From a virus, in IMG/VR virus record IMGVR_UViG_3300046167_000666, positions 1 to 30,641 of that record: a stretch of DNA of 30,641 bases; one strand, written 5' to 3'. Under the pieces are notes generated by a model. The model saw only the letters and a program-made list of their open reading frames with translations, had not been told where the DNA came from and did no database searches. The first letter of the stretch is position 1; each line of letters begins with the position of its first letter. Positions 411-25,830 of the stretch are shown piece by piece. The position numbers and the translations under genes were made by a program.

Positions 411-538
411 TTGTTACCTTTAGTTTTTTCCTTCTTTTTATCCTTGTTGAAAATTTTATCCCAATTATCTTCATATTGTTTACGGTCTTCTATCGGTCTC
501 GGTTTCGATCCTTTACCGCCGTGCCATTTTTCTCTCAT
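407..538 (-). CDS. Small basic conserved phage protein (43 aa)
   Basis: 43 residues, starting MREKWHGGKGSKPRP and ending in a lysine-rich tail. The HGGKGSKPRP start and a following YEDNWDKIF segment match a short protein I have seen in many phages; its function is unknown. The ATG lies inside the 3' end of the upstream transferase gene in another frame, and the TGA overlaps the ATG of the holin-like gene by four bases (ATGA). Because it has its own ATG and fills the gap exactly, I treat it as an independent gene and not as a frameshifted tail of the transferase. Confidence 0.72.
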   Translation of the reverse strand: MREKWHGGKGSKPRPIEDRKQYEDNWDKIFNKDKKKEKTKGNK

Positions 539-1460
539 TCTCTATCACCATATCTCTAAGCTCAGTGTCTTGTATTGTAGGATTTTCTTCCAACCAAAGA
601 TAACGTCGAGTCCAATATTGATGAGTTGTTTTCTCATGTTTATTTACGCAGACGTAACCTATTACTCCGCGACTCATCTTTGTATTTATGTAGTGTTCAT
701 TGCTTTGATGTTGATAATGATTAATCACAATCAAACACTTGTCCTGCTCTTCATCACTCTTATGTCTGTATTTAAAAATGCCGTGGTTTGTGGCCCGCCA
801 ACTATGAAAAAAATTATGAGCATCTTTATTAGAAGAATCAAACCATTTAGTTTTTTCTTCAAAATTCAAATCAGCGAAAACACTGTAACCACTATCGACC
901 GACGAAACTGTTATTTCTATTTTCGATATGTTTTCTCTTTTAACGATAGATTTATGCATAGAAGGAACATATGCGGTGTCATCATTCGGTGGTAAACCGT
1001 CATAACTATTTCTTTCAGTAAAAGATTTTCTAACAGAGTTCGGTTGTCTTATCAGTTTGTTGCTAGTGAAATTTCTCAGAGGAATTATTATCTGCGTTAC
1101 GTCTTCGTCTTCGCAACGTTGTAACAACTCCTTTATACTTTTGTCATTTCTCGTGTAAGTAAATTCGTCGAGGTCACAAATTAAAACCCAATCTTCCTTT
1201 ATCTTTTTAACATGCTTAGCATATAACCGAGGTTGACGATTCTGAAAATTATCAAGTTGAACTTTATTTGAAACCGTATCGTAAAAAAATATTTCAATGC
1301 GGTCAAGATAATCAGATATCTCATCTCGCCAATTATCGTCACTATCATTGTCTATCAAATAAAATCTATCGACACCAAGTTCTATATGGTGTTCAATAAA
1401 TTCTCGTATGATATGCGACTCATTACGAAAGACAGCTAGAATGGCCAGAGATTGTGACAT
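513..1460 (-). CDS. Glycosyltransferase, GT2/GT92-like
   Basis: About 315 residues. The N-terminus has the family opening: AVFRNESHIIREFIEHH, then GVDRFYLIDNDSDD, typical of Glyco_tranf_2_4 / GT92-type transferases. The metal-binding acidic motif is probably DLDEF near residue 98. An upstream GTG would add two residues, but GGGGTGAAG sits just before the ATG at 1460, so I place the start there. The substrate is unknown; transfer to a host surface sugar, a virion glycan or modified DNA are all possible. It directly follows the tmRNA, so it is probably on the same transcript. It ends CGG CGG TAA, overlapped by the next small gene. Confidence 0.75.
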   Translation of the reverse strand: MSQSLAILAVFRNESHIIREFIEHHIELGVDRFYLIDNDSDDNWRDEISDYLDRIEIFFYDTVSNKVQLDNFQNRQPRLYAKHVKKIKEDWVLICDLDEFTYTRNDKSIKELLQRCEDEDVTQIIIPLRNFTSNKLIRQPNSVRKSFTERNSYDGLPPNDDTAYVPSMHKSIVKRENISKIEITVSSVDSGYSVFADLNFEEKTKWFDSSNKDAHNFFHSWRATNHGIFKYRHKSDEEQDKCLIVINHYQHQSNEHYINTKMSRGVIGYVCVNKHEKTTHQYWTRRYLWLEENPTIQDTELRDMVIENERKMARR

Positions 1461-1530
1461 CTTCACCCCATTTCGTTGTTAGAATGTTGCTCCCATTGGA
1501 TAATAAGGGGGGGAGCGGAACCTCAGGTGA

Positions 1531-1572
1531 TTATGCCGCTAGGGCAACTTCACCGTAAAACGCATCGTTAGC
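1531..1572 (-). other. tmRNA proteolysis-tag reading frame
   Basis: Thirteen codons plus TAA read ANDAFYGEVALAA, giving AANDAFYGEVALAA with the alanine carried by the tmRNA. The start (AND) and the end (ALAA) match bacterial SsrA tags, so ClpXP-type proteases should recognise the product. The resume codon is GCT at 1572-1570. A likely pseudoknot 1 lies just upstream, where GAAC can pair with GTTC. Confidence 0.92.
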
Positions 1573-1666
1573 ATTTATTAATTTGAACCACCGTTTTTAC
1601 AGTCAGCGTTCATGGACTGATTCTCAATGATACTTTGGGGTCGCCTGTCGAATCCAGAACGCCCCC

Positions 1667-1730
1667 AACAGAAACGCACTAGCCACTTTATCAGATGTGT
1701 TCCAAACTTAACTGGACACTAATGCGTTTC
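1667..1730 (-). other. Excised spacer of permuted tmRNA, 12-bp hairpin
   Basis: The segment between the encoded CCA and the first base of the coding piece can fold back on itself. GAAACGCATTAG (1730-1719) pairs with CTAGTGCGTTTC (1682-1671) over 12 base pairs with one G-U. This hairpin sits directly beyond the acceptor stem, as expected for the internal spacer that RNases remove when a permuted tmRNA is split into two pieces. Confidence 0.88.
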
Positions 1731-1791
1731 TGGTGGAGGCGAGGGGAATTGAACCCCTGTCCATGCTTCCTACTGATACCACATCATCGAA

Positions 1792-1938
1792 TTATTTTAG
1801 ATTTTGGTTTGATCCGCCATTTTTGCCGCCACTACCACCGGTACCGTTACCGCTGTTAGAACCGTTGTCTCTATTCTTCACGATTAGATAGACTGCTGCC
1901 GCGACGATAACTAGACCTACAATAACTTCTGCTGACAT
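1792..1938 (-). CDS. 48-aa small membrane protein with Gly/Asn-rich tail
   Basis: The 48 residues start MSAEVIVGLVIVAAAVYLIV, a single membrane helix. A basic segment follows, then a flexible tail rich in Gly, Asn and Ser. AGGAG lies six bases before the ATG, so the start is well supported. Function is unknown; the size and topology fit a signal-anchor or small lysis/membrane-stress protein. Its stop codon directly abuts the first paired base of the tmRNA acceptor piece (1791), so mRNA and tmRNA precursor are probably one transcript. Confidence 0.7.
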   Translation of the reverse strand: MSAEVIVGLVIVAAAVYLIVKNRDNGSNSGNGTGGSGGKNGGSNQNLK

Positions 1939-1947
1939 ATTTTTCTC

Positions 1948-2529
1948 CTAATTTCCTGTTATCAGTTGATAAATTTCTTTCCAATTTTGCACACGTAAAG
2001 CGTCACCTTTATAATCAACGTTGTACCCATGACCCATTATAACACTATTTAGTCCTATTTTGCAACCAACGTCCGCATTTTCTGGTTTATCCTCTACCCA
2101 GTAACAACCACTATCTCGATATTTTTCTAACGCTTCATCCTTATCAGCACCACAGTCGAGATAGACATATTTCTCGAAAACACTATGGCCGAAAGTCTCA
2201 CATAGATTTTTTGTCCTAAGGTGTTGAGCATACTCGTTGTCGCTTAATGATGTGATCACATGAAAAACATAACCGTGTTCCTCATGTAGTTTGCGGATAT
2301 ACTTGATTGCGTCTCTCAGAGGTGGAATCTTACGAATAGAAGCCGACTCATTAAACATCCGGGTCAGTCTTTTTTTCTCAGCATAACCCACATCATATCT
2401 TTTACCAATGTCATAATCATTAACTGCTTTGATACGGTAACCGTGTCGTTTCATCCACTGGTCGAAAGCATACACCCAATCTAACATCACACCATCACAA
2501 TCGGTTAAGATTACTTTATCACTCACCAT
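1948..2529 (-). CDS. HAD-superfamily phosphatase/nucleotidase
   Basis: About 193 residues. Motif I is DCDGVMLDW near the N-terminus: the nucleophile Asp, then Asp two residues on. Motif II is the Ser/Thr of VITSLSD (about residue 90). A motif IV-like acidic site is WVEDKPENAD (about 145-155). The layout resembles phage 5'-nucleotidase/HAD-like hydrolases. A GTG nine bases upstream is possible, but AAGGTG sits seven bases before the ATG at 2529, so I prefer that start. It overlaps the preceding gene by 11 bases. The substrate, perhaps a nucleoside monophosphate, is inference. Confidence 0.75.
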   Translation of the reverse strand: MVSDKVILTDCDGVMLDWVYAFDQWMKRHGYRIKAVNDYDIGKRYDVGYAEKKRLTRMFNESASIRKIPPLRDAIKYIRKLHEEHGYVFHVITSLSDNEYAQHLRTKNLCETFGHSVFEKYVYLDCGADKDEALEKYRDSGCYWVEDKPENADVGCKIGLNSVIMGHGYNVDYKGDALRVQNWKEIYQLITGN

Positions 2530-2704
2530 TTTTTTCACCTTGCACCCTTTCGGCTAAGACCTCAAGCTCTGCCTTCTCCATAAGAAATAGTGCCTTTCTA
2601 AAACCTTCATCGAGACCCGTATAATATCCAGATCGATACACAAGAAAACATTGTATGATAAAGAAGGCGATACCCAATACTATAGGAAACTCAAATGTCG
2701 CCAT
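2519..2704 (-). CDS. Small single-pass membrane protein (61 aa)
   Basis: The N-terminus forms a membrane helix (about residues 6-24, FPIVLGIAFFIIQCFLVY). A charged helical tail rich in Glu and Lys follows. I do not recognise the family. It overlaps its upstream neighbour by 14 bases and its downstream HAD gene by 11, so translation is likely coupled. Confidence 0.6.
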   Translation of the reverse strand: MATFEFPIVLGIAFFIIQCFLVYRSGYYTGLDEGFRKALFLMEKAELEVLAERVQGEKNGE

Positions 2705-5093: not shown

Positions 5094-5749
5094 AATCTAA
5101 ACGCCTCGCCACATGTTGCCATTTATCTGCATGTTCACAATCTTTGGTATCCTCATAATAAGGGCCGCCGTTTGTGTAATGTATCATTTTAGGGAGGATA
5201 ACACGACTGATTTGCATTGTCAACCAAATAATTCCATTCTAAAGGTAACTCACCGATCTTGTTAAATGACGTCCACTTAAACTGGTGCAAATCGAGTCCA
5301 GATGCCGCATTGACATAATCTGGCAAAAGATTTGTGCACATCGTATTATTGAATAATATCACACTCGACCAGTTCTTGCAACTATATTTTGTCTGTTCGC
5401 GGCCTAAAAACTTCTTGTCATCTTTGACCACCTGAGAGTGTTTGCAGCACATAACGGAATATTTCATATTTCTGTGATCAAAAAGTTTTGCAATATCCGC
5501 CTGACAGATAATGTCGTTATCCATAAACAAAGACCATCCTTCGAATCGTGACAAATAAGGTGTCATGAAACGAGAGTTGGAGAATTCGGTGCTGTCGTAT
5601 TCTCCTCTCGGTCTGGTATATTCTGGAATGTTTTTTTGATTGAGGAATGTTATCTGAAGCGGAACACTACTATGATCCAGTAGGCTCTCAGCAGCAGTAT
5701 AAGACAGTTTAGGTATCGACGAATCGTACCCTATGAAAACTTTATACAT
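5062..5749 (-). CDS. GT8-like glycosyltransferase, needs a +1 shift at CCC-TAA
   Basis: The first 186 residues (from the ATG at 5749) carry YKVFIGYDSSIPKLSYTAA at the N-terminus and the metal-binding FMDNDI (about residue 77). They end ELPLEWNYLVDNANQS and CCT CCC TAA. In the +1 frame right after CCC (5194-5192) the sequence continues KMIHYTNGGPYYEDTKDCEH, the typical C-terminal HYTxGGP segment of this transferase family, for 42 more residues to 5062. The full product would be about 228 residues. The ATG overlaps the preceding TGA by one base. The acceptor is unknown; with the adjacent GT29-like gene it may modify a surface glycan. Confidence 0.75.
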
Positions 5750-6504
5750 CACCAGTTCGTAAACTTTGGATCATTGATTACTTCTTCCTGTAAGTCACTC
5801 AACATATGCCACTTTAGGTGACCATCTTCTTGCGCTCTAAGTGTATATTGTTTTTCGTTGTGATGATCGTGGTCCCAAGAGTATCTATCGTTTTCCCAAA
5901 TAACATCACGTATAGGTCTATGCCACGAGTGGTGTTTGACTTGATCGGCGCGCCGTATATCCGAAGTAGATTTTTTGAAGAAATCAAATCCTATTATGTC
6001 TAGAGATTTTTGAGTTTGAACCTTCTCTACCATAAACATAATGGCGATGATTCCACCAGATAATCTTGCTGTGCGTTCGTCGTTGTTATCAGACCATCCG
6101 TCATATTTGAATTTTTTATTTTTTTCAATAATTTCTTTATCGGTAAACATCTGATGAACTTTTTCTGGAGGTATTTTATCCACCCAAGATTTAACGGCTG
6201 GTCGTTCTATTCTCAATCTGTTGTTGTTGAATAGAATTAATTCGATTAGTTTGGTTTGATCCTCGGTATGATATTCAAAATACTCTTTCATCCTGAAGTC
6301 ACCTGAAGACCAGACGTTGCACTTTGTACCGAGTACTTCTGACCTGCCTTTCATTCTGATGCCATTACCTAAACGTATAACTTTATCGAAACTGTCAATG
6401 AAATCACCTTTGCGGTGATTAAACATCTCTACAGAATTACCGACGATCAAAACTCGTTGATCACGAAAATAATCCTTAACATGTGTCAGTGAAAGATCAG
6501 GCAT
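5749..6504 (-). CDS. GT29 (sialyltransferase-like) transferase
   Basis: 251 residues. The segment VLIVGNSVEMFNHRKGDFID followed by FDKVIRLGNG matches the nucleotide-sugar-binding start of GT29-type proteins. Later residues (DIIGFDFFKKS) match the second family segment. The start ATG directly follows the upstream stop, and the gene overlaps the next transferase by one base. GT29 enzymes use CMP-sialic acid or related sugars; whether this one does is not shown. It may act on host envelope glycans or virion fibres. Confidence 0.68.
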   Translation of the reverse strand: MPDLSLTHVKDYFRDQRVLIVGNSVEMFNHRKGDFIDSFDKVIRLGNGIRMKGRSEVLGTKCNVWSSGDFRMKEYFEYHTEDQTKLIELILFNNNRLRIERPAVKSWVDKIPPEKVHQMFTDKEIIEKNKKFKYDGWSDNNDERTARLSGGIIAIMFMVEKVQTQKSLDIIGFDFFKKSTSDIRRADQVKHHSWHRPIRDVIWENDRYSWDHDHHNEKQYTLRAQEDGHLKWHMLSDLQEEVINDPKFTNW

Positions 6505-10071: not shown

Positions 10072-10470
10072 CTATTTCTTCTTGTTGCCAATACTATATT
10101 TGGCAACTAATTCCCACTCTGACTTATCTTTGTGAGAAATGATCTTAATGGTATTAATGGGTGCCACTTCCTGATCATCGAAGGCACTAACGATAGTCAA
10201 TAGTTCCCATTCTTGCAACAACTTCACAATCGCATTGCGACGTGACCGATCTTCTTCGGAAAAGTTTGTAGGCTTGCCGTCAAGAGCAAACAATTCCTTA
10301 AAATGTACAATGTAATACTTACCACGTTTATGTAAAATGTGACACGATTGAAAAAGTTTCTTATCTTTCGCAGAACAAATACCAATACGGGTTAAAGTTT
10401 CCCTAATCTTTAAGAAATCATCATTATCTTTCAGTGAGATTTCTACGAGTGTGTCAACAATATTTTGCAT
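10072..10470 (-). CDS. regA: RegA translational repressor
   Basis: 132 residues (T4 RegA is 122). Conserved segments are LKDNDDFLKIRETLTRIGI, LFQSCHILHKRGKYYIVHFK and SEWELVAKYSIGN, which line up with T4 RegA along the whole length. RegA is an RNA-binding protein that blocks translation of many early phage mRNAs at their start regions. It follows gene 62 by four bases, as in the T4 order 45-44-62-regA. A CCC codon at 10161-10159 (CCC ATT) is read normally, because the sequence after it is the conserved RegA C-terminus. Confidence 0.93.
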   Translation of the reverse strand: MQNIVDTLVEISLKDNDDFLKIRETLTRIGICSAKDKKLFQSCHILHKRGKYYIVHFKELFALDGKPTNFSEEDRSRRNAIVKLLQEWELLTIVSAFDDQEVAPINTIKIISHKDKSEWELVAKYSIGNKKK

Positions 10471-11040: not shown

Positions 11041-11982
11041 TCAACTTCCGAATTCGCAGTTAATCATAATTTCAGTAAGACAAGCTGTGGTATTAATCTC
11101 ATGGTCAGCAACAAAGGCCGCCTTGTATTGATAATCAGCAAGTGTCAAAACTAGTTGCGGAATCGCAGAGGTCGGCATGAAGTTTGTACATGTATCATAA
11201 ATCTGACGATACAATTCAGTCGACTCAACGTCACTGTTATTCGCGACCCATTTACGCATAGATGTAAAATCTTTTTCCTTTAGATGCTTGATCAGATCGT
11301 TGATTGTGGCATCTTTGAAATTTGCGAGTATACCGCTATCAATACTACCTGTTGCTGCGTATCGTTGCAATTCATTTAGAATACGGCGATTGTCTGGAAA
11401 ATACTTTTTCACAACCTCAACAACGGCCATCTTATCAAACGTAATGTTTTCTGTACCGAGTATATTCAACACACGTTTAAACATCTGTTGTGCCATGACA
11501 GCCTTATCTTCTTTTGTGAAAGAAAAGTCTATGACAGAACACCGAGAGTGTAGTGGTTCAATAATGCGATTCTTAAAGTTGCACGTTAGAATAAAACCGC
11601 AGTTACTCGAAAACTCTTCCATGAAGTTACGGAGAGCGGGTTGGGTCGAGTTTGCATTTAGATAGTCTGCCTCATCTAGTATCACGTACTTTCGTCCTCC
11701 TTGCAAGGAGACAGACGAGGCGAACAGCATAATCTCATTGCGAAGTGTATCGATATTACCGTTCATTGAACCGTTGATAACGATATAATCACATTGCAAC
11801 TGTTCAAGCATAGCACGAGCGATGGTCGTTTTACCGATACCAGCACCGCCAGATAGAATCAGATTAGGAATATTACCTTGTTCGACAAACGTTTGAAACG
11901 TTTCTTTCAGGTTAGTAGGTAGAATTGTATCTTCTACAGTTTTTGGCCGATACTTTTCGACCCAAAGAAATTCATCACGCAT
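11041..11982 (-). CDS. 44: Clamp-loader large subunit gp44
   Basis: 313 residues (T4 gp44 is 319). Walker A is GGAGIGKTT (about 45-53), Walker B is ILDEADYLN (about 100), and the arginine finger is in SRCSVIDF (about 147). The N-terminus WVEKYRPKTVEDTILP is the standard clamp-loader opening. It loads the gp45 clamp onto primer ends with gp62. GAGGTGG lies five bases before the ATG. Upstream, 11983-12091 has no convincing promoter. Confidence 0.95.
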   Translation of the reverse strand: MRDEFLWVEKYRPKTVEDTILPTNLKETFQTFVEQGNIPNLILSGGAGIGKTTIARAMLEQLQCDYIVINGSMNGNIDTLRNEIMLFASSVSLQGGRKYVILDEADYLNANSTQPALRNFMEEFSSNCGFILTCNFKNRIIEPLHSRCSVIDFSFTKEDKAVMAQQMFKRVLNILGTENITFDKMAVVEVVKKYFPDNRRILNELQRYAATGSIDSGILANFKDATINDLIKHLKEKDFTSMRKWVANNSDVESTELYRQIYDTCTNFMPTSAIPQLVLTLADYQYKAAFVADHEINTTACLTEIMINCEFGS

Positions 11983-12091
11983 AAAACCACCTCAATAATT
12001 ATATAAAGTGTACCAACCGCCCCGATGTTGCCCTTCGCGTTGACACTGTAATGACCTGGTCCCATAGTCACTACCCCTTTTGTTCTTCTAT

Positions 12092-12748
12092 CTATTCAAA
12101 CGTTGATGTACTTTCAATAGAAATCCAATAGTCAACGTCATCAGAAGAATATTGTGCAATACCTTTCTTTGAAATCTTGACATTATATGTCGAAGGTAAA
12201 ATCTTCATGTTTTCAATTTTAAACACAGCATTGAAGTTTAGATCAGTTTCAGCAACTTCAATATCGTATTTATCCGAAGAAGGATTCTTAGTATCCGTAC
12301 CACGAAGAATGATTTTGCCATTCTCACCGACCACTGTGAAGTGAGGCAAACTCATAACGCTCATAGCCTTCATGACTTGAGCAAAGTCTTCCTGTTGGAG
12401 AACAAACTCAACATCAGCATCATCGACAGACAGATCACGATTAGGTGGTGTAACGATTGTCGATGGGTCCGCGAATGTATAACTGACCTTACGGCCTTTT
12501 GATGTAATGTCGACCTTGCTTTCGTCTAACTCAAACTGAGGGTCTTCGAATAAAGATATTACACCAAGAAAACGTGACAACTCGTAAATCGAAAACGTAG
12601 AAGGAATTGAACCGTCAAGTTTCGCTTTAGCCATCACTGTCTTGTTTGGTGAAATGGTTCTCAGTACATCACCTTCTTGAAATTGCAGAGAGGGATTGAT
12701 CAAAGAATAGTTACGTAGAATTTGCATGGTTCTTTCAGATAATTTCAT
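12092..12748 (-). CDS. 45: Sliding clamp gp45
   Basis: About 218 residues from the ATG at 12748 (T4 gp45 is 228). The N-terminus MKLSERTMQILRNYSLINPS matches T4-like clamps. The rest is beta-rich, with the repeated two-domain pattern of PCNA-like clamps. GGAG is eight bases upstream; the longer open frame lacks such a site. In T4 the clamp also couples replication to late transcription through gp33 and gp55, and a gp55 homologue is present in this window. Confidence 0.88.
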   Translation of the reverse strand: MKLSERTMQILRNYSLINPSLQFQEGDVLRTISPNKTVMAKAKLDGSIPSTFSIYELSRFLGVISLFEDPQFELDESKVDITSKGRKVSYTFADPSTIVTPPNRDLSVDDADVEFVLQQEDFAQVMKAMSVMSLPHFTVVGENGKIILRGTDTKNPSSDKYDIEVAETDLNFNAVFKIENMKILPSTYNVKISKKGIAQYSSDDVDYWISIESTSTFE

Positions 12749-12761
12749 AATATGACTCCAG

Positions 12762-13735
12762 TTATTTAATTGGTTTCTTCTTGGTGAGTTTAGACGGATC
12801 AGCCGTACTTGTTGCACCGACAGAAGCTAAGTGTCTTAGACTTCCGCCAAAGATATAGGTACCTACATGTTTCAGTTCCATCCAAGGACACAACCAAATT
12901 TTCATACCCATCCTTTGTACATTATAACAGAACATGTAGTCTTCTGACAAGTACCTATTTGAATAATTTTCACGAACAATACCATGCCGTTTATCATCCA
13001 AGAATGCAATTACATCGTCACGTTGGGCATCAGGATTTTCTTCATAAAATGCCGTAATCTCTGGTACAAGATTCTGTGACTTATCATCAATGAGTGCATC
13101 GAAGTATGCCATGATTTCCCGCGAACCGTCAAAGTTTGCGGTTCGAACATGATCAGGCTTATAAAGAAACTGAGGATAATGTTTATCGTAAGCTTCAAAG
13201 ACCTTGCGTTGTATTAACATGAAACCAGTACCGCCTTCTGCTACTTCACACGGTTCACCGATTTTAATACGTGAACCACCTTTTGGGATTGAAGACGTAA
13301 TCACCAACATAATTTTCCAATTGATTGGGGGTCTTCATCAGCGGCACCCATATCAACTGCCTGCTTGATCTTCTCCCATGCAATTGTCTTCTTGGCATAA
13401 GGACCACAAACAATATCCATTTCATCGGGGTTTTGTACTGCGAGTCCCAACAAAGCGATTACATCTTTTGCTTTGAATCCGATATCTGCATCGATAAACA
13501 TCATATGCGTACAGTCTGAACGCATAAACTCATCAGCACAATAGTTGCGAGCGCGAGTTACAAGCGACTCATTGAACAAGAAATAAAACTGTAAAGGTAT
13601 ACCGTATTGTGTACAGACACCGGTGAGGTCAGCGAGTGATCTTGCGAACATACCAGCACATTGACCTCCGTACATAGGCACTGCGACAAATAGTTTTTGT
13701 TCTTTAAGTTCTTCAACTGGAATGGAAAAATCCAT
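12762..13735 (-). CDS. GT2-like glycosyltransferase, needs two +1 shifts at CCC
   Basis: The N-terminal frame has KLFVAVPMYGGQCAGMFARS, YFLFNESLVTRARN and the metal-binding MFIDADIGF. It runs out of frame after GAADEDP. At CCC-C (13330-13328) a +1 step gives NQLENYVGDYVFNP. A second +1 step at CCC-A (13287-13285) gives KGGSRIKIGEP. The remainder, GGTGFMLIQ, FLYKPDHVRT, RYLSEDYMFCYN and VGTYIFGGS, matches this phage transferase family. All three frames are used, for about 323 residues. GGAGGG precedes the ATG. Substrate unknown. Confidence 0.82.
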
Positions 13736-13736
13736 A

Positions 13737-14234
13737 TTATACCCTCCTTTTCATTCTTTTGATTTTCTTCATTTTCTTCATTGCTTGTTCTTTATGGAAC
13801 TTTGTTGCTAGATCAATGTGAGAAATGCCGTTCAAGTGGTCGAGTTCATGTTGAAAAACTCTCGCCGTCATGCCGTCAAATTTACCAGTCTTTACTTCGC
13901 CTAGTTCATTTGTCCATTTTGCACGAATCATCTTTGATCTTTTAATCTTAACAAATAGGTCAGGATAAGTCAAGCACCCTTCTTCTAAAAGAATGGTTTC
14001 TTCGCTTTCATAAGTTACCGCAGGATTAAAACATACGTTACAAGGGTTGCCGCGCATAATAAAAACGCGGTGATCCATTCCTATCTGGTTAGCCGCAAGA
14101 CCAAGGCCTTTGTATTCCACCAAACAGTTGAATAAAGTAGACGCTATTTCTTTCGCATCATGTTCTTCAAAATCAAAATTGTCAAGTTTACGGTGAAGTA
14201 AATCACTCGTCGAAGGTATCAGGTCTGTCTTCAT
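13737..14234 (-). CDS. def: Peptide deformylase
   Basis: 165 residues with all three deformylase motifs: GLGLAANQ (43-50), EGCLTYP (85-91, Cys is a metal ligand) and HELDH (129-133). It removes the formyl group from the N-terminus of new proteins. Deformylases are known in cyanophages and other marine phages, where they may favour phage or short-lived host proteins. The C-terminus is a basic helix (KKMKKIKRMKRR). The start overlaps the upstream gene by 32 bases. Confidence 0.92.
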   Translation of the reverse strand: MKTDLIPSTSDLLHRKLDNFDFEEHDAKEIASTLFNCLVEYKGLGLAANQIGMDHRVFIMRGNPCNVCFNPAVTYESEETILLEEGCLTYPDLFVKIKRSKMIRAKWTNELGEVKTGKFDGMTARVFQHELDHLNGISHIDLATKFHKEQAMKKMKKIKRMKRRV

Positions 14235-17160: not shown

Positions 17161-18256
17161 TACTTAAAACTTCCTGATAAAGATCATTTAACATCGACGA
17201 TACATTTTTAGACTGAGTGTCACTGAGAGAAAGACTGCGAGAAAGACCTTCGACGTACTTTTTAACAATGGTCATTGTGTCTTCTGCCTCATCAATAAAA
17301 TCACTCTCATCACCGATATCAAGATTAAGATTGTCTTCAACTACCTGTACATGTACAGGTTCACAGGAGTTCAACTTGTCCATGAACAAATCAAACACAT
17401 ATGGATTGTTTTTGTTTTTAACAACAACTTTAACGTAAGTATCCTTCAGATGCGAGAAGTCGGGAATATCATCCACTTCTACGTCATCAAAGAATACCTT
17501 ATGAAACATAATAAACGGATTCTTAATGTATGTCAACTCTCTTGTTTCAGTATCAAAGATGTGAAATCCACGATCATCGTTATAATCAGACCAGGTCATC
17601 TGATAAGGCGAACCAAGATAGTGTACGTTGTCTTTCGAGGACTTGTGATGGAAGTGACCAGACATTACCATATCAAATTTTTCAAACAACGTGTGACTGA
17701 GGCCTGCGTCGATAGTTGCACCTTTATACATCTCAAATCCTCTTAACTCAAGGTGACCCATGACCACATCAGCGTTGCTGTTTTTGATTGTATCCATTGC
17801 GCGATCATAATTACCACTATTGATCCAAGGCATAAACATTATTTTACATCCATCAAAATCAATGTCGCTTGATGCGTCTTGGTATATAAACAATTCTGAT
17901 GGATTGCCGGTGATACAACTCTTGCATTTGCCAGCCATCCATCCAAGAAGTAACCGTGGTGCGTTTACGGCGTTAGTGTTCTTAAAGTAAGTATCATGAT
18001 TGCCAACGATGCAATGGAGATTGATGCCCTTACGAAAAATTGGACCAAAAAAATAATCAGTACAACGCTCAAGACTATCGAAATTGACGTACTTACGTCG
18101 ATCAAAAATGTCTCCCAATTCAATGATATCTTTGATACCATGTTCTTCCAAGGTTGGGAAAAATACTTCACTATAAAACTTTTTATAATATTCGTGAAAT
18201 TGTGTGCTGTCATTCCTAATTCCGAAATGTTGATCCGTTATCAGTGCTATCTTCAT
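17153..18256 (-). CDS. 47: Recombination nuclease subunit gp47
   Basis: About 367 residues from the ATG at 18256 (T4 gp47 is 339). Mre11-type metallophosphoesterase motifs are in order: DQHFG, GDIFDRR, GNHD and GHFHHKS. It forms the end-resecting complex with gp46. A start ten residues upstream is possible. The gene overlaps the carbamoyltransferase 3' end by about 41 bases. Confidence 0.94.
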   Translation of the reverse strand: MKIALITDQHFGIRNDSTQFHEYYKKFYSEVFFPTLEEHGIKDIIELGDIFDRRKYVNFDSLERCTDYFFGPIFRKGINLHCIVGNHDTYFKNTNAVNAPRLLLGWMAGKCKSCITGNPSELFIYQDASSDIDFDGCKIMFMPWINSGNYDRAMDTIKNSNADVVMGHLELRGFEMYKGATIDAGLSHTLFEKFDMVMSGHFHHKSSKDNVHYLGSPYQMTWSDYNDDRGFHIFDTETRELTYIKNPFIMFHKVFFDDVEVDDIPDFSHLKDTYVKVVVKNKNNPYVFDLFMDKLNSCEPVHVQVVEDNLNLDIGDESDFIDEAEDTMTIVKKYVEGLSRSLSLSDTQSKNVSSMLNDLYQEVLSND

Positions 18257-20033
18257 CGAGCAATGTTCTCCATAGGCGACCTTCATCGTCTAGATAACAG
18301 ATACAATCAAGATCGGTGTTATCTAATATATTTTTAGCGTCTTCGAATGTGTTCAGAATAGGTTTTCCGTTCACATTAAACGAGGTGTTCAGTAGAACAC
18401 CATCTATATGGGATAGTATCGCATATAATAACCCATTTGTAAAGCTCGTTACGGTCTGTAATCTTGCCGTACCGTCAATATGTGTAATTGACGAAAGTTT
18501 TTCTCTGTATTCTTCTTTCACTTTGACCGTATACGACATATGTTCGGTATTTCTAAAGTTCGGACTATCAAAATATTTTGCGGCATCTTCAAGCCTACAA
18601 ACAGGCGCGAATGGTCTATACCATTCTCTTTTCTTTACCTTCGCATTCAAGATTTCTTTCATACGTGGATAGGTCGCGTCACAAAGTATTGATCGAAATC
18701 CAAGTGCTCGTGGTCCAAACTCACAGTTGTCTTGTATGAGTCCAACTATCTTTCCTGATTTTATTGTTTCGACAATATCACGTAGACCTACTTTTTCCGC
18801 GTCGGGAAAATATTCTTTAAACTTATGCCTGTCGGTTACTCTTATGCCTTTGATACTATTGCTGTGATAGTCTTTGTAGTTCATAACGCGTTCATGCATT
18901 AGTTTCTTGGCAAGAAGACCTACACTGTTACCACCGTCGTTGGGATTCGGAGGTACATAAATGTTCAAGTGAGGAAATTCTTCTTTTATTCTTTGATTAC
19001 ACAATACATTAAGTGCACAACCACCTGAGAGCAATAGGTTACCACCAGATGCCATAATCTTTTCCATATTACTAGAAACTAATCTGATCAGAGCTCTTTC
19101 TAGGAACTCTTGTGCGGCCCAAGCAAAATCATATTCTTCTTTACCTTTTAACCAAAATCTATTCCAACGAGACTTATCTGACCATTCAGAAAAGTCCAGA
19201 GCAATCGCACCACCATACGGAGAATCAGCTGCTCTGATGTGGTTATTCAACACAACTCTTTTATCGATTCTTTCCCATGTTTGCCAACCTGTAAAACTCA
19301 TGGTCATGAATCCTTTTTGAGTTTTGTCCGGATGCAACATAACTTGACTTCTTCGTTCGAAAAAATCGATAGTTTTTTCTGTTTCCCACACAGCATCTTT
19401 ATCGGTGACTTCACCATAAGCAGAAAGACCCATTAGTTTTCCAGCTAAGTCGAGCATATTTTTTGTGTTCTTCAAACTACTGCAAGCTTGTGCGGCAGTA
19501 TTGTACATATTGCCATAACTTTTATTCATTGATTTAGATGAAACAATTTTGCCATTTCTTACTTCTGCCATTAGGGTGCAATCATCGTCGCCGGCAACGT
19601 CCCACGAAATACTAAAACAATCTTCGAAAGGTGACGTGATAAAGGCAGAATACAAATGCAATGTATGGTGTCTGTCCGATTCGTCGCAAACAACCAGTCT
19701 TTTAAAGTCTATGTTTGTGCCGGTGAAAACTTCTTGAAAAAAAGCAGTAGTCTGTCTATTATTCATCATTAGCTTAACATAAATCTTTTCGACTGTTCTA
19801 TCTTCAGTCGAATCGTAATGTGAATCCATAATAGAATCAAACGCCAGTTGTATATATCTGGTCGCTTTCTCTACCTGACCTTTTCTACCATCACTGAACA
19901 TTGCGCCAGACGAAAACAGATGATGCTTCTCACCACTGAGTCTTTCCAGTTCTACCGCATAGATATCTTTTCTGTTCGTATCGTGCATTGCTAAACTACA
20001 ATCGTGACCGAAATAAATCGCGACGTTCTTCAT
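18216..20033 (-). CDS. Carbamoyltransferase (NodU/TobZ family)
   Basis: 605 residues. IYFGHDCSLAMHD at the N-terminus, SGGCALNVLCNQRI in the middle, PPNPNDGGNSVG, and FGPRALGFRSILCDAT in the C-terminal domain are hallmark motifs of NodU/CmcH/TobZ enzymes, which transfer carbamoyl from carbamoyl phosphate via an adenylate. Homologues occur in T4-like cyanophages. The acceptor here is unknown; a sugar or a modified nucleotide are both reasonable. It sits between sigma-55 and gp47 and overlaps the gp55 stop (ATGA). Confidence 0.92.
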   Translation of the reverse strand: MKNVAIYFGHDCSLAMHDTNRKDIYAVELERLSGEKHHLFSSGAMFSDGRKGQVEKATRYIQLAFDSIMDSHYDSTEDRTVEKIYVKLMMNNRQTTAFFQEVFTGTNIDFKRLVVCDESDRHHTLHLYSAFITSPFEDCFSISWDVAGDDDCTLMAEVRNGKIVSSKSMNKSYGNMYNTAAQACSSLKNTKNMLDLAGKLMGLSAYGEVTDKDAVWETEKTIDFFERRSQVMLHPDKTQKGFMTMSFTGWQTWERIDKRVVLNNHIRAADSPYGGAIALDFSEWSDKSRWNRFWLKGKEEYDFAWAAQEFLERALIRLVSSNMEKIMASGGNLLLSGGCALNVLCNQRIKEEFPHLNIYVPPNPNDGGNSVGLLAKKLMHERVMNYKDYHSNSIKGIRVTDRHKFKEYFPDAEKVGLRDIVETIKSGKIVGLIQDNCEFGPRALGFRSILCDATYPRMKEILNAKVKKREWYRPFAPVCRLEDAAKYFDSPNFRNTEHMSYTVKVKEEYREKLSSITHIDGTARLQTVTSFTNGLLYAILSHIDGVLLNTSFNVNGKPILNTFEDAKNILDNTDLDCICYLDDEGRLWRTLLDEDSTDNGSTFRN

Positions 20034-23859: not shown

Positions 23860-23888
23860 ATTATACTACATGGTTAAACTTTTGTAAA
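23860..23888 (-). promoter_or_regulatory. Strong sigma-70-type promoter of the uvsY operon
   Basis: TTTACA (23888-23883) and a perfect TATAAT (23865-23860) are separated by 17 bases. The -35 lies in the last codons of the gp19-like gene. It should drive uvsY to gene 46 before late transcription begins, and it is the best consensus promoter I see in the window. Confidence 0.82.
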
Positions 23889-24377
23889 GCGATAATTAGC
23901 AAACTTAAACGAAGCAGTTGCTTCTATGTAAGCAATCTCTGTATCTTTTGAATCGACCTGTATCGGTGTAAGTGATATAGGAAACATATCAATAATATCA
24001 ATACGCATTAATGGATTCCTGGCGCTACTGAGTATCATGATATTTGCATCGGAATATATTCCTCTACCTGAAAAACTGTCTTGATTCTCTATCTGTGCAA
24101 ACTGTTCGAATTCTTCTGGAAAACCAATTGCGGTAATCCAATCAAATATCTCAAGATAGTTACTCATATCTTCATTGATCTTAAATGTGACTTCTAGCGT
24201 TTCGTATTCTATGTGGTCACCATATACAGGAATCTTTTTGAACGGAGTTGGCATCTCTGTGAACGGTAGATTAACTCCAGGAAGGGTAATAGACTGTACA
24301 AAGAACTCCATTGATTCAGCTTTATTGATACTAAAGCTAAACCCTGTGGGGGATAACATATTCTTATTAATGGCCAT
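23874..24377 (-). CDS. gp19-like tail-tube protein
   Basis: 167 residues. FFVQSITLPGVNLPF, then KKIPVYGDHIEYETLEVTFK and NYLEIFDWITAIG, follow the strand order of T4 gp19-like tube proteins (T4 gp19 is 163). In T4 this position after gene 23 is taken by gene 24, so this is either a displaced tube gene or a second tube paralogue. A CATAAATA late-type promoter lies 43 bases upstream. Confidence 0.68.
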   Translation of the reverse strand: MAINKNMLSPTGFSFSINKAESMEFFVQSITLPGVNLPFTEMPTPFKKIPVYGDHIEYETLEVTFKINEDMSNYLEIFDWITAIGFPEEFEQFAQIENQDSFSGRGIYSDANIMILSSARNPLMRIDIIDMFPISLTPIQVDSKDTEIAYIEATASFKFANYRFTKV

Positions 24378-24489: not shown

Positions 24490-25830
24490 TTACAGCAAGT
24501 TCTGTACAACAGTTCTGCGGTAGTAAACGTTTGAATCAACTTCAAGCGCTGCAGCTGCTTCAGGACTATTTGCACCTTTTGCGAATGGGTTTGGAGCCAT
24601 GCCATAACGGGTCTTGAAACCAATTTTTGGCTGGAACGTGTCTTGATCGACAGCGCGTACCATTTGCAGAGGAACATATGGGCAGTAGAAAAGACCAGCG
24701 TCGAATGCGTTAGCACCCTTATAACCGATAGTCATGTAGTTACCAGTTGTGTATGGATCGATATATACACGGTAACGACCATTCAGTACACCAGCGAAGG
24801 TGTTACCAGTATCGTCTACTTGGAGGTTGTTGCTGTTCAGAGCAGGAGTGTAATCGAGAACACCAGCCATCTGAAGTGCAGAAGCAACGTCAGAAGAACA
24901 GATGATTACGTTACCCTTTCCACGTCGAGTCTGCTTAGCAATTATGTTTGCTTCGCGTTCGATGTGGAACATAAGACCCTTGAACTTCTCAACAGACCAA
25001 CGGCCGTTTGCATCGACGTCGAGGTCGAAGAAACCGTCAGTAGTTACGCCGCCAACAGAACCGCGTACAGCAGTTACGTTGATTGAACGAATAACTTCGC
25101 GGTTGATTTCAGCAAGAATCTCAGCAGCAAGAATGTTTGACAACTCAGCTTCTGCGTCAAGACCGTGAACAGCTTTCAAGTCTTGTGCAAGTTCGAGTGA
25201 GTAGTCAGCTTTCAGAGCGCGTGACTTAGCAGTTACAGTCACCTTATCGATGCTGAATGCCATCTCGTTGAACGCAGCGTTTCCTTCAGTAGCGCCTGTC
25301 TCCATACCTTGAGTATAGTTGTAAGACTGAGTGTCGGGAAGGTTAAGGTTGTTAGCATCGCTATCGAAGTCAGTACCAACCTGCTCGCCACCGGGTGTGT
25401 TAGCACCAGATGCAGTAGACGAGTGTGCTGTGTCTGCTTCGTTGTAGAATGCTTCTGCGCCGCCTTGGTTGGTGTACTTAGTACGCAATGCAAAGATCAG
25501 TCCAGTAGGACCAGTCATTGGCTGCACACCACATACATCATATGCCATTAAGTTAGGCATAGCGCGACGAACGAGTGAGATAAGGATTGGATCGTAAGAA
25601 CCCAAGTTAGCGTTACCAGCCATGCCACCAACGCCGACAGCGTTAGTAGGTGCCGTTTCTGAAAGCAAAGATTGGTCAGCGCCTATCTCAGCAGATTCAC
25701 GCAGAGCGCGCTCAGTGTTTTCGAGAACCATAGCAGTCACTTGACGTTTGTGCTGGTCCTGAATCTCGGGAAGATCAGGATGAGAGATCACTGATTCCCA
25801 CTTGTTCTGAATTTGTTCGTTTAAATTCAT
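24490..25830 (-). CDS. 23: Major capsid protein gp23
   Basis: 446 residues. It begins MNLNEQIQNKWESVISHPDL, and the segments RRAMPNLMAYDVCGVQPMTG and LALRTKYTNQGGAEAFYNE-like are standard gp23 features. T4 gp23 is longer (521) and is cleaved by gp21 after about 65 residues; a similar removal here is likely. AGGAG lies nine bases before the ATG and a perfect late promoter further upstream. Placement after 21 and 22 is as in T4. Confidence 0.97.
   Translation of the reverse strand: MNLNEQIQNKWESVISHPDLPEIQDQHKRQVTAMVLENTERALRESAEIGADQSLLSETAPTNAVGVGGMAGNANLGSYDPILISLVRRAMPNLMAYDVCGVQPMTGPTGLIFALRTKYTNQGGAEAFYNEADTAHSSTASGANTPGGEQVGTDFDSDANNLNLPDTQSYNYTQGMETGATEGNAAFNEMAFSIDKVTVTAKSRALKADYSLELAQDLKAVHGLDAEAELSNILAAEILAEINREVIRSINVTAVRGSVGGVTTDGFFDLDVDANGRWSVEKFKGLMFHIEREANIIAKQTRRGKGNVIICSSDVASALQMAGVLDYTPALNSNNLQVDDTGNTFAGVLNGRYRVYIDPYTTGNYMTIGYKGANAFDAGLFYCPYVPLQMVRAVDQDTFQPKIGFKTRYGMAPNPFAKGANSPEAAAALEVDSNVYYRRTVVQNLL

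Follow-up and report, generated by a model that had tools for sequence, protein, structure and literature searches.

The window analyzed here spans an entire IMG/VR virus record (30,641 bases) and represents a fragment of a T4-like myophage. On its minus strand, ARAGORN called one tmRNA, a complete circularly permuted gene at 1489–1793 that encodes the tag ANDAFYGEVALAA. The merged permuted tmRNA model of Rfam (RF04321; cut-off 47 bits) aligned to positions 1793–1531 across its full length (model 1–213) and scored 101.3 bits (E 6.9e-19), a match far beyond chance. Read along the minus strand, an acceptor piece and an encoded CCA come first, followed by a spacer and then the coding piece. A sequence-only reading had proposed a circularly permuted two-piece tmRNA in a phage and had suggested an Infernal-type check with permuted tmRNA models; both the ARAGORN call and the RF04321 match above its cut-off bear this proposal out.

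All parts of the gene lie on the minus strand, and their limits were taken from the RF04321 alignment and from pairings. The acceptor piece (1731–1793) contains a P2 strand (AUUC at 1792–1789 onward), the T arm GGACAGGGGUUCAAUUCCCCU, the 3′ acceptor strand CGCCUCC and A73, with CCA encoded at 1731–1733. Next is the 64-nt excised spacer (1667–1730), which holds no ORF and is closed by a 13-bp terminal stem with G-U pairs (1730–1718 with 1683–1671). The coding piece (1517–1666), for which we additionally used the alignment of relatives, starts with the acceptor strand GGGGGCG (1666–1660) and a D-like loop, and continues with the 3′ strands of P2 (GUAUCAU at 1633–1627 and GAAU at 1623–1620) and the PK1 stem (CAGUC/GACUG at 1619–1615/1604–1600). 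The tag reading frame called by ARAGORN (1531–1572) has an alanine resume codon, specifies ANDAFYGEVALAA with a hydrophobic LAA-type end, and terminates at TAA. A 3′ hairpin of the coding piece (GCUCCC/GGGAGC, 1489–1516) recurs in relatives with other stem letters and a similar loop (CCUUGUUAUCCAA). The acceptor stem forms 7/7 pairs, including a G3-U70 wobble, a mark of alanine tRNAs and tmRNAs, and the trans P2 helix consists of a 4-bp part and a 6–8-bp part (7 bp in the window). The parts listed by the sequence-only reading were thus all found, its essentials were right, and its perfect 7-bp acceptor stem (GGGGGCG/CGCCTCC) stands. Its spacer hairpin is present as well, at 13 bp including G-U pairs rather than the 12 bp claimed. 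It had placed the gene at 1489–1791; the left boundary is explained by the 3′ hairpin (GCTCCC/GGGAGC, 1489–1516), whereas the acceptor end falls at 1793 in the Rfam alignment.

The T4-like identity of the carrier is given by homologues of gp22, gp23, gp44, gp45, gp46/47, UvsW and gp55 (PHROGs, tblastn). The major capsid protein gp23 (24490–25830, minus strand; tblastn) has Stenotrophomonas phage DLP_6 as its best named relative (68% identity). The clamp loader gp44 and sliding clamp gp45 (11041–12817, minus strand; PHROGs, synteny, tblastn) occupy a region that is syntenic with the tmRNA in relatives and marks the phage identity. By tblastn, the nearest named phages were DLP_6 (gp23 68%, gp44 62%), Methylophilales phage Melnitz and cyanophages. 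Immediately upstream of the tmRNA is a 48-aa ORF (1792–1938, minus strand) whose sequence looks like a single-helix membrane protein; it has no PHROG match, and it ends with a stop codon that overlaps the first bases of the acceptor piece. Farther upstream lies an NT5C-like (HAD-fold) gene (1948–2538, minus strand; Pfam PF06941, phrog_420, synteny), and directly downstream of the tmRNA is a glycosyltransferase gene (513–1466, minus strand; Pfam PF13704, PF01697). Additional glycosyltransferase-like genes were seen at 5189–5752 and 5749–6504, a phage peptide deformylase gene at 13737–14234, and a NolO-type carbamoyltransferase gene at 18216–20033 between the gp47 and gp55-like sigma factor genes. 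In the window, no late promoter of the T4 type was seen immediately before the tmRNA; TATAAATA or CATAAATA closely precedes gp22, gp23 and the gene at 23874–24377, with overall motif counts not above those of a shuffle. At the nucleotide level, megablast of 12 kb returned no match, named phages gave short matches only (mostly T arm and acceptor), and the plasmids searched gave T-arm matches only. Of the named phages, C48C1 carries the closest NT5C-like gene; it showed no tmRNA match.

We then looked for the subfamily to which the gene belongs, using a motif that spans the D loop to PK1 (TGGANTCGACNGG...GAGAANC...ATGANCGC). The motif was present in 23 IMG/VR viral contigs, which are fragments. 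Among 84,980 species genomes of bacteria and archaea it was absent, in a scan for exact matches to a pattern designed from phages that could miss a diverged bacterial relative. The exact window tag had no match in the viral and genome collections, the 84,980 genomes included, so it is so far unique. Tags of the relatives follow ANDD(N/S)YYG(D/E)(Y/V)ALAA, with close variants, and every one is intact with an LAA end. Contigs of this subfamily (L086, L124, L137, L191, L228–L246) share with the window the PK1 motif, acceptor stem, P2 pattern, 3′ hairpin and synteny, whereas the window tag is one residue shorter than theirs; their spacers range from 12 to 150 nt (64 nt in the window), and in one contig pair the spacer contains a protein gene.

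Pairing was intact in 15/15 distinct relatives for the acceptor stem, P2a and P2b alike, with compensatory changes such as AUUC/GAAU to GUUC/GAAC in P2a. Spacer ends also pair where the spacer is at least 55 nt, mostly over 11–13 bp and with differing sequences. The trans and spacer helices keep pairing via compensatory changes. Although a few weak pairs were flagged in the Rfam alignment, as a decaying, non-functional copy might show, we consider decay most improbable given this pairing across all 15 distinct relatives, the open tag and the full-length Rfam match. In many motif contigs, homologues of gp44 (67–75% amino acid identity), of the NT5C-like gene (78–81%, close upstream of the tmRNA) and of the gene at 10072–10470 (71–72%) lie near the tmRNA in the order seen in the window. 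Such synteny, together with the conservation, is what inheritance of the gene within a clade of phages would leave.

The sequence-only reading had suggested transfer from a host among the alphaproteobacteria or a few other bacterial groups, and permuted tmRNAs are indeed typical of alphaproteobacteria; Melnitz, the best described phage example, is also of the alphaproteobacterial type (PMC9004378). A recent pick-up from such a host, with the gene as a mere passenger, would fit these observations. However, the best lineage model for the window was beta_tmRNA (RF01850), at 60.1 bits and below its cut-off of 84, while no match to alpha_tmRNA (RF01849; cut-off 50 bits) was retained. The window gene has permuted order and trans helices in common with both models, and its sub-cut-off score does not assign it to the betaproteobacterial lineage either. 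In seven relatives tested, the retained lineage matches were mostly beta (64 to 83.7 bits), with one alpha. A best match that is beta yet below cut-off, in a subfamily whose matches are mostly beta, leaves the alphaproteobacterial donor unsupported. Comparing the tag with possible donors, as had been proposed, yielded no match in the 84,980 genomes, and neither tag nor motif occurred in any bacterial genome scanned. The synteny across the phage clade likewise argues against a recent pick-up, as do the compensatory changes, which speak for long selection in phages. We therefore regard recent acquisition from an alphaproteobacterial host as very unlikely; the gene looks like an old one, vertically inherited in phages.

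Permuted tmRNAs in phages have already been published, and the window gene joins that kind. The Melnitz paper reported tmRNAs in 402 of 18,146 phage genomes in 2021, 133 of them unique; 53 of these 133 were two-piece, and 50 of the 53 came from marine or aquatic phages (PMC9004378); by these counts the permuted form is not rare. Counting every form of the gene, a 2025 tmRNA database includes 79 unique sequences from phages (PMC11915505), and its permuted tmRNAs number roughly 12,000 in total. We found that RF04321 also matches DLP_6, Melnitz, Mosig and S-CAM1. Like the carrier of the window gene, Melnitz and Pelagibacter phage Mosig are T4-like and have a permuted gene above the Rfam cut-off without SmpB. 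Their tags (ANDNYVPVDYALAA and GEDNFALAA) and PK1 differ from those of the window, and relatives of Melnitz match the alpha model while the window prefers beta. Melnitz and Mosig also carry a glutamine riboswitch in or near ssrA (PMC9004378), whereas Rfam found none in the window, and the Melnitz spacer holds an ORF that the window spacer lacks. In Melnitz-like loci (L286, L288, L295, L298), the riboswitch aptamer was seen just downstream of the coding piece, as published. DLP_6, the closest named phage (gp23 68%, gp44 62%), likewise has a permuted tmRNA (RF04321, 136.8 bits), but its tag (ANDDSFAPMAIAA), PK1 and spacer are different, and it belongs to a different tmRNA subfamily. This DLP_6 gene (L212, L249; KU682439.2, about 102838–103059) is missing from the GenBank feature table. 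Unusual tags, among them GNDDIYDMAA, GNDYELQMAA, ADAELVAA and, in S-CAM1, ANTSDSAANNIVAFSRSTVAA, were noted in other phage permuted tmRNAs (L098, L101, L105, L158, L172, L214); degradation may differ for such tags.

Based on these features, the window very probably carries a functional two-piece tmRNA gene that is the phage's own and was not recently taken from a sampled bacterium. A single precursor transcript would be made, its acceptor stem lengthened by the spacer stem. Cleavage by RNase P would generate the 5′ terminus of the coding piece (1666), 3′ processing would leave CCA at 1731, and the two pieces would be held together by the acceptor stem and P2. Host alanyl-tRNA synthetase would then charge the tmRNA through G3-U70, and host SmpB and EF-Tu would deliver it to ribosomes stalled on broken or nonstop mRNA. 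The tag ANDAFYGEVALAA would be added, the ribosomes freed, and the product passed to a host protease such as ClpXP. Ribosome rescue or tagging, as the sequence-only reading had suggested, is the likely role, and the phage may gain from a supply of free ribosomes at a time when host messages are being degraded and its own are made in excess.

A search for SmpB found no such gene in the window or in nine related records, of which four are deposited phage genomes; it recovered SmpB in 10 of 14 control genomes, and for the window, a 30.6-kb fragment, its own absence weighs little. With no phage SmpB found, host SmpB must serve, and the predicted phage RNA must use host AlaRS and EF-Tu as well. The lack of a phage SmpB would also suit a decoy or competitor of host tmRNA, which would occupy SmpB or redirect tagged proteins via its own tag. 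A tag without a match in the 84,980 genomes at the pattern tested points the same way, and the tag-less tmRNA of mycobacteriophage DS6A inhibits endogenous tmRNA (PMC11915505). Yet the tag frame is intact and the LAA end is kept in all relatives, as for a working degradation tag, and this favors functional trans-translation with proteolysis carried out by host enzymes. A decoy is consequently unlikely in our estimation, and we retain ribosome rescue and tagging by a functional tmRNA as the preferred reading. With its own tag and no phage SmpB, this would be a tmRNA lineage kept and evolved by phages, and phage use of host trans-translation becomes a testable question.

Spacers of phage permuted tmRNAs vary from a few nt to about 186 nt, and those of 40 viral loci contain a small ORF from one of three mutually unrelated families. 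Each nested ORF is flanked on one side by the encoded CCA and on the other by a coding piece with 7/7 pairs in its acceptor strand, and all nested representatives tested exceeded the permuted-tmRNA cut-off of Rfam. Family 1 (52 codons, core KLKELQENLAKDL...KSL) is nested at 17 loci (L250–L260, L267–L272), with its stop codon 1 nt before the coding piece in 17/17. Family 2, the Melnitz type (MFKWLSKTRLVVITRDYF...), is nested at 18 loci (L285–L302); the predicted Melnitz spacer protein is MFKWLSKTRLVV..., and its ORF is unannotated in the Melnitz record. Family 3 (MRI(Q/P)MKGGDE(Y/F)D...) is nested at 5 loci (L306, L307, L313–L315) that belong to two tmRNA subfamilies with different tags.

Comparison of L250 with L251 in family 1 gave 15 synonymous and 5 non-synonymous changes (pN/pS 0.08); values were 0.14 for L307 against L313 in family 3 and 0.19–0.29 in family 2, all from short ORFs and related sequences. 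These ratios point to purifying selection on the predicted spacer protein genes of all three families. A terminal stem of 9–12 bp is kept in the nested loci and, in families 1 and 3, includes a Shine-Dalgarno-like sequence. In families 2 and 3 the ORF often extends into the coding piece, so cleavage at that point would produce a message lacking its stop codon. Members of families 1 and 3 were also found elsewhere than in spacers: family 1 immediately before the acceptor piece (L265, L276, L282) and family 3 at L308–L312.

Among intervening sequences, the tmRNA database paper mentions a single case containing a tRNA gene and another containing a repeat (PMC11915505). Among open-licence papers, we found no earlier report of this architecture, a protein gene nested in the segment removed from an RNA gene. 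Translation of the excised or the unprocessed RNA, if it occurs, would couple tmRNA processing and protein synthesis in one transcript. Since the window spacer is without an ORF, the nested genes bear on the class and not on the window gene itself. On balance, we favor an old, phage-only lineage of two-piece tmRNAs in which the excised spacer also accommodates small protein genes, such that one precursor would yield a rescue RNA as well as a protein from the discarded segment, with only the spacer stem remaining in the window. At two further loci (L263, L264), a family 1 ORF is flanked by apparent relics of an acceptor end and a coding-piece start, and in L263 a permuted tmRNA match lies downstream of it; these loci are possibly a snapshot of a tandem duplication moving the ORF out of the spacer.
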